Shown here one piece after another: positions 670 through 14,983 of a DNA stretch of 14,983 nucleotides (the stretch's first letter is position 1; each line of letters opens with the position of its first letter). The notes under the pieces were generated by a model, which was not told the DNA's origin, made no database searches, and saw only the letters and a program-made list of their open reading frames with translations. The translations under genes and the position numbers were made by a program. This DNA is from Gammaproteobacteria bacterium (lineage in GTDB: Bacteria > Pseudomonadota > Gammaproteobacteria > Immundisolibacterales > Immundisolibacteraceae). The stretch is from contig DQBD01000217.1 of the NCBI GenBank assembly GCA_003526065.1, positions 605 to 15,587 of the forward strand, given 5' to 3'.

Positions 670-745
670 GCTCCCTTCGTCTAGTGGCCCAGGACGTCGC
701 CCTCTCACGGCGAAAACAGGGGTTCGAGTCCCCTAGGGAGCGCCA
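670..745 (+). tRNA. tRNA-Glu (anticodon CTC)
   Basis: This is a complete 76-nt tRNA that closely resembles the E. coli tRNA-Glu sequence. The acceptor stem is GCTCCCT (670-676) paired with AGGGAGC (735-741), followed by discriminator G742 and an encoded CCA at 743-745. The anticodon stem TCGCC (697-701) pairs with GGCGA (709-713). The loop CTCTCAC puts the anticodon CTC at 704-706, reading GAG codons. The T arm carries GGTTCGAGTCC. Many bacteria have only the TTC isoacceptor, so the CTC form suits a GC-rich genome rich in GAG codons; a TTC copy should exist elsewhere. Confidence 0.97.
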
Positions 746-7624: not shown

Positions 7625-8290
7625 ATGCCCGAGCCGACCGAGTTCATCGTCAAGGACTGCGCCCTGGTCACCCTGGCCACCGGGGTGCGCGCGCAAAGCC
7701 TGACGGCGCTGCGCGAGGGACTGCTGGGCGTACCGGCGGACAGTGTCTATCACCACTTCTGGGGTGGCCTGCTCGGCACGCGTTTCGACGATCCCGAGTT
7801 CAACAACGACTTCGCCGCCTGGGTGCGCCACGCCCTGCACGACCTGCCCCTGGCCGAGCGCCTGGCGGTGATCGACCCGGCCCAGTTCGTCGACGCCGAG
7901 GCCCTGCGCCAGGAGGTGCTGGAAGTGGTCGAGCAGCGGCTGGACGAACTGGACACGCCACTGTGGGCACCGCGCGATCGCCAGTTCAGCTTCGTGCGCG
8001 GGCAGGTCGTGGTGTTCGACACCGGGCGTCGCCTGAGCGAGGCGCACGAGCTGGTGCAGGTGTTGCCGCAGCTGTCGCCGGGCAGCGTGTTCTACCACGT
8101 CATCGACGCGCGCAGCCGGGCGCCGCAGAGCTGCGACGACTTCAGCTCCTGGCTGCGGGAGCTGCCCGACAGCCACGACACCCTGCTCGCGCGCCTGGCC
8201 GACATCGACCCCTACTTCGTCACCCTGGCCGAGCTGCGCCAGCAATACATCGACGTGATCACGTCGCACTTCGGCGGTGCATCGTCATGA
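7625..8290 (+). CDS. DUF5752 family protein, two internal repeats, partner of trehalose synthase
   Basis: The 221-residue protein resembles the uncharacterised DUF5752 family, often seen next to TreT-like glycosyltransferases. It consists of two related halves of about 100 residues (about 7-106 and 121-216). Shared positions include DSVYHH at 39-44 with GSVFYH at 153-158, NDFAAW (61-66) with DDFSSW (171-176), IDP (83-85 and 194-196) and LRQ (94-96 and 204-206). No signal peptide, membrane span or catalytic motif of a known enzyme is visible. The ATG at 7625 precedes the conserved FIVKDCALVTLATG; the nearest Shine-Dalgarno-like GGAGA is about 15 nt away, which is too far. Its stop overlaps the treT start as ATGA, so the two are probably coupled and perhaps form a complex. 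Function is unknown; a regulator or subunit of TreT is an inference. Confidence 0.8.
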   Translation: MPEPTEFIVKDCALVTLATGVRAQSLTALREGLLGVPADSVYHHFWGGLLGTRFDDPEFNNDFAAWVRHALHDLPLAERLAVIDPAQFVDAEALRQEVLEVVEQRLDELDTPLWAPRDRQFSFVRGQVVVFDTGRRLSEAHELVQVLPQLSPGSVFYHVIDARSRAPQSCDDFSSWLRELPDSHDTLLARLADIDPYFVTLAELRQQYIDVITSHFGGASS

Positions 8291-9528
8291 GTGCCCTGCT
8301 CGACAGCTATGCCGACGTCGCCGGCGCCGACGTGGTACAGCACCTGCGCCAGCTGGCGGCGCCGCTGCGCGGGCTGAAGATCGTCAACATCAACTCCACC
8401 CGTGCCGGCGGCGGAGTGGCGGAGATCCTGCACAAGCTGGTGCCGCTGATGCAGGCGCTGGAACTGGACGTGCGCTGGGAGGTGATCACCGGCGGCGGTG
8501 CCTTCTACCAGTGCACCAAGGCCATGCACAACGCCCTGCAGGGCCAGCCGGCGCCGTTGTCCGAGGCCCTGCTGCGCGCCTACGAACAGACCAACGCCGA
8601 CAATGCCGAAACGCTGGCGCCGGTGCTGCGCGACGCCGACGTGGTGTTCATCCACGACCCGCAGCCGGCGGCGCTGCTGCGGTACCTGGGCGAGCGCAAG
8701 GGCAAGTGGATCTGGCGCTGCCACATCGATGCCAGTCATCCGCAACGCAGCGTGTGGCGCTACCTGCGCGAGTTCATCGCCGATTACGACGCCAGCGTGT
8801 TCTCGCTGGCCGACTTCGCCCGCCCGCTGCCGCATCCGGTGTACCTGGTGCCGCCCAGCATCGACCCGCTGAGCGAGAAAAACCGCGACCTGCCGGCCTG
8901 GCAGGTGACCGAGGCCTGCCAGCGGCACCAGGTCGACTCCGAACGGCCGCTGATGCTGCAGGTGTCGCGTTTCGACCGCTTCAAGGACCCGCTCGGCGTG
9001 ATTGCCGCCTACCGCCTGGCCCGCCAGTTCATGCCGGCACTCCAACTGGTGCTGGCCGGCGGCAGCGCCGATGACGACCCCGAAGGCGCCGCCGTGCTGG
9101 AGGAAGTGCACGCGGCCGCCGCCGGCGACGACGACATCAAGGTGCTGCTGTTGCCCTCCGACGCGCACCTGACCATCAACGCCCTGCAACGGGCGGGGCA
9201 GTTCGTGCTGCAGAAATCCCTGCGCGAGGGTTTCGGGCTGACCGTGACCGAGGCCATGTGGAAGGGCAAGCCGGTCATCGGTGGCGACACCGGCGGCATC
9301 CGCCTGCAGGTCATCAATCACCACACCGGTTTTCTGGTCAGCACGCCGGAAGGCGCCGCGCTGCGCGTGCGCTATCTGCACCAGCGTGGCGACATCGCCG
9401 CCGAGATGGGCGCCAAGGCGCGCGAGTTCGTGCGCGAGAACTTCCTGATCACCCGCCAGCTGCGCGACTACCTGACGCTCGTCACCAGCGTCCTGCATGC
9501 CAGGGAGGGCCGGCTTGAGCTCAGCTGA
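8287..9528 (+). CDS. treT: Trehalose synthase, TreT-type glycosyltransferase (GT4)
   Basis: The 413-residue retaining GT-B glycosyltransferase matches TreT, which joins NDP-glucose and free glucose to make trehalose in one reversible step. Key stretches are NSTRAGGGVAEILHKL (36-51; glycine-rich loop), VVFIHDPQPAAL (119-130), WIWRCHIDAS (141-150), VSRFDRFKDP (226-235), and LQKSLREGFGLTVTEAMWKG (308-327, with the E-x7-E signature), then PVIGGDTGGIRLQ. HDPQPA and WRCHID are especially TreT-like. The start codon overlaps the upstream stop in ATGA; the end overlaps otsB by 14 bp. The protein is cytoplasmic. A related sugar-phosphorylase or other GT4 role cannot be excluded, but the neighbours (otsB, otsA) support trehalose. 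Confidence 0.87.
   Translation: MSALLDSYADVAGADVVQHLRQLAAPLRGLKIVNINSTRAGGGVAEILHKLVPLMQALELDVRWEVITGGGAFYQCTKAMHNALQGQPAPLSEALLRAYEQTNADNAETLAPVLRDADVVFIHDPQPAALLRYLGERKGKWIWRCHIDASHPQRSVWRYLREFIADYDASVFSLADFARPLPHPVYLVPPSIDPLSEKNRDLPAWQVTEACQRHQVDSERPLMLQVSRFDRFKDPLGVIAAYRLARQFMPALQLVLAGGSADDDPEGAAVLEEVHAAAAGDDDIKVLLLPSDAHLTINALQRAGQFVLQKSLREGFGLTVTEAMWKGKPVIGGDTGGIRLQVINHHTGFLVSTPEGAALRVRYLHQRGDIAAEMGAKAREFVRENFLITRQLRDYLTLVTSVLHAREGRLELS
9502..9509 (+). promoter_or_regulatory. Ribosome binding site selecting the TTG start of otsB
   Basis: AGGGAGGG inside the 3' end of treT lies 5-6 nt before the TTG at 9515. The in-frame ATG at 9497 lies upstream of this site and has no comparable sequence, so TTG is the better start. 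Confidence 0.65.
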
Positions 9529-10327
9529 TGGCGGCCGATTGCTGACGACGTTCTGGGCCCAGCTGGCGACAGCACAGCGGACACTGCTGCTGCTGGACTA
9601 CGATGGTACGCTGGCGCCGTTCACCCTCGACCCGGCCGACGCCCACCCCTACCCGGGCATCACAGGGGCCCTGGAGCGGTTGCTGGCGCTTCCGACGTCG
9701 AGCAATCGGCTGGTCATCGTCAGCGGCCGCTGGCTCAGGGACCTGCGTCCGTTGCTGGGCATCGACCACGGCCTCGAAATGTGGGGCTGCCATGGCCGCG
9801 AGCGGCGCCTGCCGGATGGGCGGCACAGCCTCACGCCGCTGCCGGAAGCCGCCGTGCGAGCCCTGGCCGAGGCCGATGCCTGGGAGACCATGGCGCGTCG
9901 GTTGGGCGGACGCGTGGAGCGCAAACCGGCGTCGCTGGCCTTCCATTGGCGTGGCCTGCCGGCGGACCGACACGAAGCGCTGCGCCAGGCGCTGGCGCAA
10001 CGCTTCGCCGAACTGCCGGAAAACAACACACTGGCCTGGCATGACTTCGACGGCGGCGTCGAACTGCGCGTGCCCGGCCGCGACAAGGGCGACGTGGTGC
10101 GCACGCTGCTGGCGGAAGCACCGCCCGGCGCGCCCACGCCACGCATCGCCTACCTGGGCGACGACCTCACCGATGAGGACGCGTTCAAGGCTCTCGGCGA
10201 GCAGGGCCTGTCGGTACTGGTGCGGCCCGAGTACCGACCCACCGCGGCGCAGCTGTGGCTGCGCCCACCCGAAGACCTGCTCGCCTTCCTCCACCGCTGG
10301 GCCGACATACGGGAGCAGACTGGATGA
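9515..10327 (+). CDS. otsB: Trehalose-6-phosphate phosphatase (HAD superfamily)
   Basis: The 270-residue cytosolic enzyme removes phosphate from trehalose 6-phosphate, completing the OtsA/OtsB route. HAD motif I is LLLLDYDGTLAP (24-35), with nucleophile D28 and acid D30. Motif II is VIVSGR (67-72), followed by the family-typical GCHGRERR (91-98). The motif III lysine is probably K191 in PGRDKGD, and motif IV is YLGDDLTDEDAF (213-224). Length is typical for OtsB. The TTG start is chosen for its Shine-Dalgarno sequence (ATG 9497 would add six residues). It overlaps treT by 14 bp and shares ATGA with the channel gene. It lies upstream of otsA rather than beside it. Confidence 0.93.
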   Translation: MSSADGGRLLTTFWAQLATAQRTLLLLDYDGTLAPFTLDPADAHPYPGITGALERLLALPTSSNRLVIVSGRWLRDLRPLLGIDHGLEMWGCHGRERRLPDGRHSLTPLPEAAVRALAEADAWETMARRLGGRVERKPASLAFHWRGLPADRHEALRQALAQRFAELPENNTLAWHDFDGGVELRVPGRDKGDVVRTLLAEAPPGAPTPRIAYLGDDLTDEDAFKALGEQGLSVLVRPEYRPTAAQLWLRPPEDLLAFLHRWADIREQTG

Positions 10328-11449
10328 CTTTGAGCGAGATCGACTGGGGCAACGCGACCTGGACCGAGTGGATGCAGGTCAGCGTCCTCGGCAACCCGCT
10401 GGCCGCCTGGGCCATCGCCGTGGTCTTGATTTTCCTGGTGGCCACCGTGCTGCCCGTGGTCAAGGGCTTCATCGGGCGGCGCCTGCGCAAGCGGGCCCAG
10501 AACAACGGCGCCGTCATGAGTCGCTATCTGGCCGAGATCGTGGCGGGCACGCGCGCCAGCGTGATGCTGGTCGTGGCGGTGTTCATCGGCGCGCGGGCAG
10601 TCGACCTGTCGCCCAAGCTCGACGCGGCCCTGATCGGCATCACCGCCGTTGCCCTGCTGCTGCAGGCGGCGCTGTGGGCGCAGCGCGCGCTCAACGTGTG
10701 GCTGCGACGCTACCGCGAACAGGCACTGACCGAGGATGCCGGGGCCGCCACCACGGTCGGCGTCCTGAGCTTCGTGGCGCGCACCGTGCTGTGGTCCGTG
10801 GCCCTGTTGATGATCCTGGACAACCTGGGCTTCGACATCACGGCCCTGGTGGCCAGCCTGGGCATCGGCGGCATCGCCGTCGCCCTGGCGGTACAGAACG
10901 TGCTCGGCGACCTGTTCGCGTCGCTGTCGATCGCGCTCGACAAACCGTTCGTGGTCGGCGACTTCATCATCGTCGGCGACCTGCTGGGCACGGTCGAGCA
11001 CGTCGGCCTGAAAACCACCCGCGTACGCAGCCTGTCCGGCGAACAACTGGTGTTCGCCAACACCGACCTGCTCAGCAGCCGGATCCGCAACTTCAAGCGC
11101 ATGTTCGAGCGGCGCGTGGTGTTCAAGTTCGGCGTGCTCTACAGCACGCCGCGCCAGGCGCTGGCCGAGATTCCCAAGGTGGTGCGCAAGATCGTCGAAA
11201 CGCAGGAGAAAGTGCGGTTTGACCGCGCTCACTTCTTCGCCTTCGGTGACTCCTCACTGGATTTCGAAGTGGTTTACTACGTGCTCGACCCCGACTACGG
11301 CCGGTACATGGATATCCAGCAGGCCATCAACCTGGCGATGATCGATCGGTTCGCCGAAATGGACGTCGACTTCGCCTTCCCGACCCGCACGCTGCACGTT
11401 GAGTCGCTGCCGGCCGCCGCGCCGGCCGGCGCCGCAGCAACCGGAGGCG

Positions 11450-11457
<8 letters not shown>
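10324..11457 (+). CDS. MscS-family small-conductance mechanosensitive channel
   Basis: The 377-residue inner-membrane protein would open under membrane tension to release small solutes upon osmotic downshock. Hydrophobic spans appear at about 28-48, 78-92, 103-126, 148-166 and the pore helix 172-205. The pore helix ITALVASLGIGGIAVALA plus VQNVLGDLFAS has the glycine/alanine packing typical of MscS. It is followed by the beta domain (KPFVVGDFIIVGD at 207-219, VEHVGLKTTRVRSLSGE at 224-240, VFANTDLLSSRIRNF at 243-257). With about five spans it is larger than E. coli MscS (three spans, 286 residues), closer to YbdG/YnaI-type homologues. The C-terminus is alanine/glycine rich. It is joined to otsB by ATGA and overlaps otsA by 8 bp, suggesting a role in releasing trehalose and other solutes. 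Confidence 0.92.
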
Positions 11458-12936
<1,479 letters not shown>

Positions 12937-12961
<25 letters not shown>

Positions 12962-13533
12962 ACGGTGCCGGGCCCCGTATCCCCGCGACTGGCGCGCAGC
13001 AGGTTCACAAACAGCGCCCCCTGCTCCAGGGCATCGTCCAGCGCCACGTGCGTGTGCGGCAGATTGGGGTCGAACCACGCGCGGGGCATGTGCCGCTTGG
13101 TCGTTTGCCGAAACTCGCACCCGAGCACCGCCATCGCGAAGCTCTTGATGTCGAGTGCGGAGAAGCCGAACGGGTTGTCACCGACGAAACGCGCCAGATA
13201 CCAGCCCACAAACGAGAAATCGAACGTCACCGGGTAGCCGACGAACACCGGCCGCCCCGGCAACGCGCGCAGCCAGGCCACGTACTCCGGCAGCGCCTCG
13301 GCGGGCGCGCGCAGATTCCGCCGGCAGGCCGCCCATGCCTGCGGCTGGTCAGCCCAGAACTGGGCGGTGCGTGGATTGACCTTGGCGCCGGGCAGCGTCT
13401 CCAGGTTGGCGCTCCAGGTGGCGACCAGACGTCCATCCGCCAGATAGGCCGCCGAGCCCAGGCTCAGCATGGAGTTCTCGCCGGGCAGGAAGCCGTCTGT
13501 CTCGATGTCGGTACTGACGTAGACCTCCGCCAC
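12937..13533 (-). CDS. DnaQ-like 3'-5' exonuclease (DEDDh type)
   Basis: The 198-residue protein is a stand-alone exonuclease domain. The DEDDh residues are visible: D9 and E11 in [10 protein letters not shown]105 in PVTFDFSFV, and H162 with D167 in [12 protein letters not shown]. No polymerase or other domain is attached, and the enzyme may trim DNA or RNA ends. The GTG start at 13533 follows a GAGG Shine-Dalgarno sequence that overlaps the msrB stop region; the gap to msrB is 6 nt, so the two are cotranscribed. The last 25 bp overlap the end of otsA on the other strand. The C-terminal tail ([12 protein letters not shown]) looks unstructured. Whether it acts on DNA or RNA cannot be told. Confidence 0.82.
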
Positions 13534-13539
13534 AACGCC

Positions 13540-13941
13540 TCACTCGCCGGCTGGATCCAGCTGCAACGACAACGAATTGATGCAATAGCGCAGACCGGTC
13601 GGCTGAGGCCCGTCCGGAAACACGTGCCCCAGGTGCGAACCGCAGCGGGCGCAGTGCACCTCCACCCGCTGCATGCCATGACTGGTGTCGACCTCGGTGC
13701 CCACCACACCGGCCGCCGCCGGCTCCCAGAAACTGGGCCAGCCGCTGCCGGAGTCGTACTTGGTGGCGGCGTCGAACAGCGCCTCGCCACACCCGGCGCA
13801 GCGGTAGGTGCCGGGAGTCTTCTCGTCCCAGTACTGGCCGGTAAAGGCCCGCTCGGTGCCTTTTTGCCGACACACCTGGTACTGCTCCGGCGTCAGCTGC
13901 TCACGCCATTCGGCGTCGGTGGTGGGGATACGCTTGGTCAT
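13540..13941 (-). CDS. msrB: Peptide-methionine (R)-S-oxide reductase MsrB
   Basis: The 133-residue enzyme reduces the R form of methionine sulfoxide in oxidised proteins. The four zinc cysteines are C48 and C51 (CAGC) and C97 and C100 (CARC). SGSGWPSF (64-71), [10 protein letters not shown] (103-112) and RYCINSLSL (118-126) are family signatures, with catalytic C120. Cysteine rather than selenocysteine is used. The ATG at 13941 has GTGGAG about 8 nt upstream, and the length is that of free-standing MsrB. There is no signal peptide, so it is cytoplasmic. It is followed after 6 nt by the exonuclease gene and preceded, 73 bp away, by the Rieske-domain gene. Confidence 0.96.
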
Positions 13942-14014
13942 GACTCGAACTCCACAGCCGCCGCGCGCGATGGCCACGGCAAAAAAGATCCGCCGGACAG
14001 CACGCCCGGGGACA

Positions 14015-14641
14015 CTACCAGAAAGCCCACAGCCGACCCTCCTGTTCGCGATGCGCCAGCGCCCGCAACGGGCGGTTGCCCTTGGCCACACACGCACCGG
14101 TGGCCAGATCGAACACCCAGCCGTGGCGCGGACAGGTCAGCCGCTCGCCCTCGCAGGCCAGCTCGGGAATGTTCGTGCTCTGGTGCGGGCAACGGGCGTC
14201 GTAGACCATGAGATCACCGTCCAGGTGGCTGACGAAGACCGCCCGCCCGTCCACCTCGCAGCGCACCGTGCCACCCACCGGCAGGTCGGCCAGCGGCAGC
14301 AGTGCGTGCCAGTCCGGCGCGTGACCGAGCTGGTCGACGCGAAACTCGGGCAGGTCCATCGCCAGCAACTGGTCGACCGCCCATACAACGCGCGTCAGTC
14401 CCAGCATGGGAAAGGCCATCAGCAAGGCGTCGAGCACCTCGTCGGCGCTGGCGCCGGTGCGCAGTGCCCGCGTCAGGTACTGTCGAAAGCCGCGCTCGGT
14501 CTGCGCATGGACCTTGCCGATCAGCGAAATCAGCGCCCGTGTCTTGGGATCCAGCCGGCGGCCGGCCATCTTCAGGAAACTGAAGTACGCCTGCATTGCC
14601 TCCGGGCGCGCCTGCAACAGGTAATCGAGAGCCTGGCTCAT
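14015..14641 (-). CDS. Carboxymuconolactone decarboxylase-like domain fused to a Rieske [2Fe-2S] domain
   Basis: The 208-residue protein has two parts. Residues about 8-95 resemble the all-helical carboxymuconolactone decarboxylase/AhpD family ([14 protein letters not shown] … [20 protein letters not shown]), but the CxxC found in AhpD-like redox members is absent (HAQTERGF at that place). Residues about 110-208 are a Rieske ferredoxin-like domain with ligands C151, H153 (CPH) and C170, H173 (CPRH), 16 residues between H153 and C170. The C-terminal [17 protein letters not shown] is typical. The ATG at 14641 is the best start although its Shine-Dalgarno sequence is weak; a longer frame up to 14737 runs into sequence that looks intergenic. 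The Rieske part likely passes electrons to an unidentified partner. Confidence 0.8.
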
Positions 14642-14724
14642 GAGCAGTGGGTCGGTAGGTGCATTGGGGCCGATTATGACCCCCTGCCCCGGTAAACTGC
14701 GACCGTCACTCAGGGGGAAGCACC

Positions 14725-14983
14725 ATGGAACTGGCACTGGCCGGCAAGGTCGGCCTGATCACTGGCGCCAGCGCCGGCATCGGCCGCGCCACCGCGCAGG
14801 CACTGGCCGCCGAAGGCGTCGGCCCCGGCGACCGGGTCGCCGGCTTCATGCCCAACATGCCTGAAACCATCATCGCCATGCTGGCCGCCACCTCGCTGGG
14901 CGCGGTCTGGTCCTCCTGCTCGCCCGATTTCGGCGCGAAAGGCGTACTCGACCGCTTCGGCCAGATCGGGCCGAAGGTGGTGT
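14725..14983 (+). CDS. Chimeric frame: SDR N-terminus joined to acetoacetyl-CoA synthetase interior, partial
   Basis: From the ATG at 14725, preceded by a strong AGGGGGAAG Shine-Dalgarno sequence, the first ~31 residues are a short-chain dehydrogenase N-terminus: a beta strand, then the NAD(P)-binding TGASAGIG (13-20) and a helix. After ALAAEGV the frame continues, without interruption, as the interior of an acetoacetyl-CoA synthetase: [15 protein letters not shown] (33-47), [12 protein letters not shown] (60-71) and [12 protein letters not shown] (75-86). The second strand and the rest of the SDR fold are missing, as are the first part of the synthetase and its start. The protein as read cannot be a normal member of either family. 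An assembly misjoin at a short shared sequence is the simplest explanation; a real deletion fusion is the alternative. The reading frame runs off the window. Confidence 0.75.

Follow-up and report, generated by a model that had tools for sequence, protein, structure and literature searches.

The window, the whole stretch of 14,983 nucleotides that was analysed, ends in an open reading frame that passes in frame from the start of a short-chain dehydrogenase (SDR) to the interior of an acetoacetyl-CoA synthetase (AACS). Judged by comparison with related genomes, this frame is very probably the chimeric end of a sequence contig and not a gene fusion. In the close relatives G268 and G156, both parts are found as separate and intact genes. 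The odd length of the window and the presence of open frames at both of its ends suggest that the end of the window is also the end of the contig. The features considered are listed in Table 1.

Table 1. Features of the window that bear on the join, with two further features
Feature	Positions	Strand	Evidence or remark
Rieske/CMD two-domain protein gene	14015..14641	-	Pfam Rieske 2.7e-12, CMD 2.5e-6; divergent neighbour used as synteny anchor
Intergenic region between the divergent Rieske/CMD and SDR genes	14642..14724	.	Arrangement common to G268 and G156 (blastn)
Genuine 5′ end of the SDR gene (residues 1–31 and two bases of codon 32)	14725..14819	+	adh_short; DNA alignment to relatives
Stretch coding a 10-residue peptide possible in either family	14791..14820	+	Join lies inside it or at its right edge
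Foreign tail of 164 bp, internal AACS, open at window end	14820..14983	+	NF002937 1.5e-30; AACS of relatives 82% (amino acids)
Gene cluster	7625-12961	+	Contiguous in G268 and G156
tRNA-Glu (CTC)	670-745	+	

Composition of the Terminal Frame

The frame (14725-14982, plus strand) starts with ATG and comprises 86 codons, and it is still open where the window ends. Residues 1–32 are of SDR type, and the remainder is internal AACS sequence. Pfam adh_short matches residues 8–32 of the frame (E 8.2e-5; 22.6 bits, below the cut-off of 26.6) and matches the first 33 residues alone at E 5.8e-5. Two SDR models of NCBIfam, PRK06125 (residues 1–33, E 4.1e-8) and PRK06172 (the first ~32 residues), also match this part, as do SDR chains of the PDB. 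The TGxxxGxG nucleotide-binding motif of the SDR family (PF00106) is present as TGASAGIG at residues 14–21; the rest of the Rossmann fold and the catalytic region are absent beyond residue ~32, and the likeness to SDRs ends after position 14819.

The second part is matched by AMP-binding (residues 22–86, E 2.6e-12), by the acetoacetate--CoA ligase model NF002937 (residues 22–85/86, E 1.5e-30) and by TIGR01217 (residues 24–86, E 2.9e-28; profile positions 128–190 of 652), the matches to the two AACS-family models spanning profile positions 128–191. The TIGR01217 score of 98.4 bits, set against a whole-protein cut-off of 520.9, is that expected of a fragment. Since the window stops at 14983, the frame does not reach the C-terminal part that follows profile position ~190. 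The top PDB match of the frame is acetoacetate-CoA ligase 4wd1 (residues 24–85, E 2.2e-20). Residues ~31 to 86 thus correspond to the internal segment specific to this family, whereas the ~130 N-terminal residues that precede this segment in acetoacetate--CoA ligases are absent and are replaced by SDR sequence. The match scores of both halves are far above chance. The in-frame switch from SDR to AACS that had been proposed in the sequence-only reading is confirmed by these Pfam, NCBIfam and PDB matches, as well as by the alignment of columns described below.

Position of the Join

The window stems from an Immundisolibacter-like gammaproteobacterium. A total of 369 genomes of the class were sampled, among which G268 and G156, also Immundisolibacter-like, were the nearest whole genomes found; both belong to one family group of 7 genomes. 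The glycosyltransferase of the window (8278-9528) has copies of 81% identity in G156 and G268, the nearest among the 369 genomes. All matches in G268, which we take to be I. cernigliae, are on a single contig of 3,243,537 bp.

In both relatives, the orthologue of the Rieske/CMD gene (80–81% identical in amino acids; 82–83% over the matched part) stands divergent to an intact SDR gene of 262 aa. The N-terminus of the window frame is closely similar to this SDR (82% in amino acids) and has the same divergent neighbour. However, the SDR of the relatives continues as SDR past LAAEGV and beyond the position of window base 14819, whereas the window frame switches to AACS there. At the DNA level, the SDR genes of G268 and G156 are 83% and 80% identical, respectively, to the window frame over query bases 1–95. 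The alignment of the window with each relative begins in the Rieske/CMD gene, crosses the intergenic region, enters the SDR gene and stops at 14819, after GAAGGCGT.

When the columns are compared, the window follows the SDR genes of G268 and G156 as far as base 14819, and beyond it the AACS genes of these two genomes. The AACS columns agree with the window from GGCGT (14815-14819) onward, and at the join itself only this GGCGT is common to the window and to the SDR and AACS genes of both relatives; the next four bases (14820-14823) are unlike either gene. The switch had been placed at 14800-14822, within the codons for LAAEGV, which is right. The 164 bp that follow this base amount to about one short read.

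SDR and AACS Genes in Related Genomes

At E <= 1e-15, a single AACS match was obtained in each of G268 and G156, a separate open frame of 669 aa. In G268, the AACS gene (minus strand) lies at ~241.5 kb and the SDR gene (plus strand) at 2,202 kb, so that the two, in opposite orientations, are separated by 1.96 Mb in one direction and by 1.28 Mb in the other; in G156, AACS is on contig C15 and SDR on contig C1. A scan of open stretches for the SDR glycine motif in the 19.9 kb around AACS in G268 and G156 found none, and tblastn of the G268 SDR against the same surroundings gave no match at E <= 1e-3.

The sequence-only reading had considered a deletion between the two genes possible, on the supposition that they are often neighbours. 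This is not borne out by the surroundings of AACS in G268 and G156 or by the distance in G268. Because the two genes of G268 lie 1.96 Mb apart on opposite strands, a plain deletion there cannot join them head to tail, and deletion between neighbouring genes was rejected on the grounds of distance, orientation and neighbourhood in these relatives. The same reading had also held misassembly to be at least as likely as deletion, which is upheld and can be put much more strongly, as SDR and AACS are intact and apart in the relatives.

A real rearrangement in this strain (inversion, translocation or deletion) might have connected the SDR gene's 5′ end with the interior of AACS, so that a disrupted or hybrid gene remained. 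In favour of this, the frame stays open through the join, and gene order in this group shifts elsewhere, the Rieske/SDR pair of G268 lying ~0.4 Mb from the glycosyltransferase cluster. Nevertheless, such an event is very unlikely, given the opposite strands and the distance of 1.28–1.96 Mb in G268, the lack of any SDR detected near AACS, the position of the join just 164 bases from the window end and the finding of such a join in none of 31 AACS loci. Its product would hold only the first strand and the glycine motif of an SDR and would lack the N-terminal part of AACS, and no function would be expected of it. There is only an extremely slim chance that a strain-specific rearrangement has set the SDR promoter and the first 31 codons before a truncated AACS, with a genuine transcript and perhaps an AACS of altered N-terminus as the outcome.

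The probability that the frame encodes a functional SDR–AACS fusion protein is close to negligible. The open reading frame alone speaks for such a protein, and its SDR part consists of 31 residues without the catalytic Ser-Tyr-Lys region that is a feature of the SDR family. Of the 391 protein relatives found for the 86-aa frame, 120 were listed, all from candidates of about 47–150 aa and so shorter than the ~550 aa of a full-length fusion; none of these 120 has the SDR motif. The motif was likewise absent upstream of the AACS segment in all 31 AACS loci, a subset (68 of the 369 genomes had AACS matches), and in every one of the 31 at least 132 open residues precede the segment. The motif pattern used recognises the window's own motif and that of 89 of 120 listed SDR relatives, and is not exhaustive.

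A Peptide Common to Both Families

The 10-residue peptide at the join (30 nt) occurs exactly in two of the 120 listed SDR relatives (P0244 and P0246) and in one of the 120 listed AACS fragments (P0064), and is thus rare in both families. P0246 carries the name 'SDR family oxidoreductase [Immundisolibacter sp.]'. Shorter forms are more frequent in SDRs: 57 of 120 listed SDR relatives have LAAEGV, against 2 of the AACS fragments (120 listed). The GVGPGD of the window recurs in 10 of these 120 fragments. The earlier suggestion that the LAAEGV stretch could occur in both parents therefore holds, as it is seen in SDR relatives and in AACS fragments alike. By these comparisons, SDR and AACS genes can have up to ten residues alike at this place, or 30 nt if the codons agree, which is within the range of short assembly words. 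A long word common to the true parents is possible. A join driven by a repeat inside the window was rejected: no tested word (12, 14, 16 or 20 bases) spanning the junction is repeated there.

Proposed Origin of the Join

In the proposed explanation, the real gene would code for an ordinary SDR, some 260 aa long, and would be oriented divergently to the Rieske/CMD gene. The sequence would leave this gene at base 14819 or shortly before it and jump into an AACS gene located elsewhere, in the same or another genome, at a point where both genes have a word in common (up to 10 residues, 30 nt). The crossing could have been made in the graph of the assembler, at the common word, or by a single chimeric read or library molecule that bridged it; a chimeric molecule joined at a microhomology would look alike. 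The actual parents presumably have such a word in common, and presumably no cell carries the join. The join would be in frame because the codons are common to both genes, and, with the frame kept in this way, its openness is no sign of selection.

According to a passage in a study of viral genomes from metagenomes, contig ends that are misassembled could represent chimeric contigs or PCR-formed chimeric reads (PMC4270193). Compared with the contig ends described in that passage, the window likewise has foreign sequence at its extreme end, and there would be no difference in principle.

In all likelihood, the frame holds no biological novelty and is not a biological feature. A gene caller would report either a partial acetoacetyl-CoA synthetase or an SDR, and both labels, together with the linkage that they imply, would be wrong; the comparisons support the earlier warning that the transfer of annotation from either half would mislead. 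The case matters as a caution only: in scans of metagenome contigs, in-frame chimeric tails that arise at codons common to unrelated families can mimic fusion proteins.

Source of the AACS Segment

The AACS segment of the window is 82% identical in amino acids to AACS of G268 and G156. Among G268, G156 and G374, this segment is 91–96% identical and the glycosyltransferase 93–97% identical (165 residues only for G374). Since the tail, at 82%, is as distant from these relatives as the window glycosyltransferase, at 81%, it may stem from the same genome, and it is as would be expected of the AACS of that genome. A clearly foreign organism was considered as its source but gained no support: relative to G268, AACS (82%) is no outlier beside the glycosyltransferase (81%). 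Several other genomes of the class reach 80–84% in the AACS segment, and 84% was the highest identity in the class-wide AACS search (369 genomes, 68 of them with a match at E <= 1e-20).

A plasmid search with the whole frame matched 96 records, none of them with a query coverage of 80% or more; all 20 matches listed begin at query base 69 or later, which is the AACS part. The SDR start gave no match in the plasmid search.

Closer Relatives and Linkage in the Window

Over 99% of its length, the glycosyltransferase of the window shows 100% identity to P0121, a protein named glycosyltransferase [Immundisolibacter sp.], for whose cluster a contig of 26,230 bp is given. With the G268 SDR as query, an intact SDR of 261 aa (P0266) was found that agrees with 28 of the first 31 residues of the window frame, the highest N-terminal agreement among the 120 relatives listed. 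The exact 31 residues occur in none of the listed intact SDRs (best, 28 of 31), in a protein database clustered at 90%, where the species' own SDR allele could be hidden in a cluster. The longest contig of P0266 is 23,708 bp, and the same figure of 23,708 bp is given for P0122, a 93% homologue of the window glycosyltransferase. Most simply, the equal figures mean that P0266 and P0122 lie on one contig, which would have the gene linkage of the window together with an intact SDR. They suggest that the linkage over 12937-14983 in the window is real.

In G268 and G156, msrB flanks the glycosyltransferase cluster on the opposite side, so that the gene order over 12937-14983 of the window differs, and the Rieske/SDR pair is about 0.3–0.4 Mb from that cluster.

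Other Features of the Window

The Rieske/CMD protein has 200-odd residues, in which a CMD (carboxymuconolactone decarboxylase-like) domain is followed by a Rieske [2Fe-2S] domain. Its first 15 related loci, at 50–61% identity, are in contigs with titles of Burkholderiales type, gammaproteobacterial or spirochaete. These loci were left out of the synteny comparison because of this level of identity and because the 18 other window queries were unmatched there at E <= 1e-3.

The gene cluster at 7625-12961 encodes a TreT-like glycosyltransferase (NF041139, E 3e-116, below the cut-off of that model), a putative OtsB-like frame, an MscS-type channel, an OtsA-like synthase and a 221-aa protein that no NCBIfam model matches at E <= 1e-10. 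In composition it resembles a cassette for a compatible solute of the trehalose type, combined with a mechanosensitive channel.
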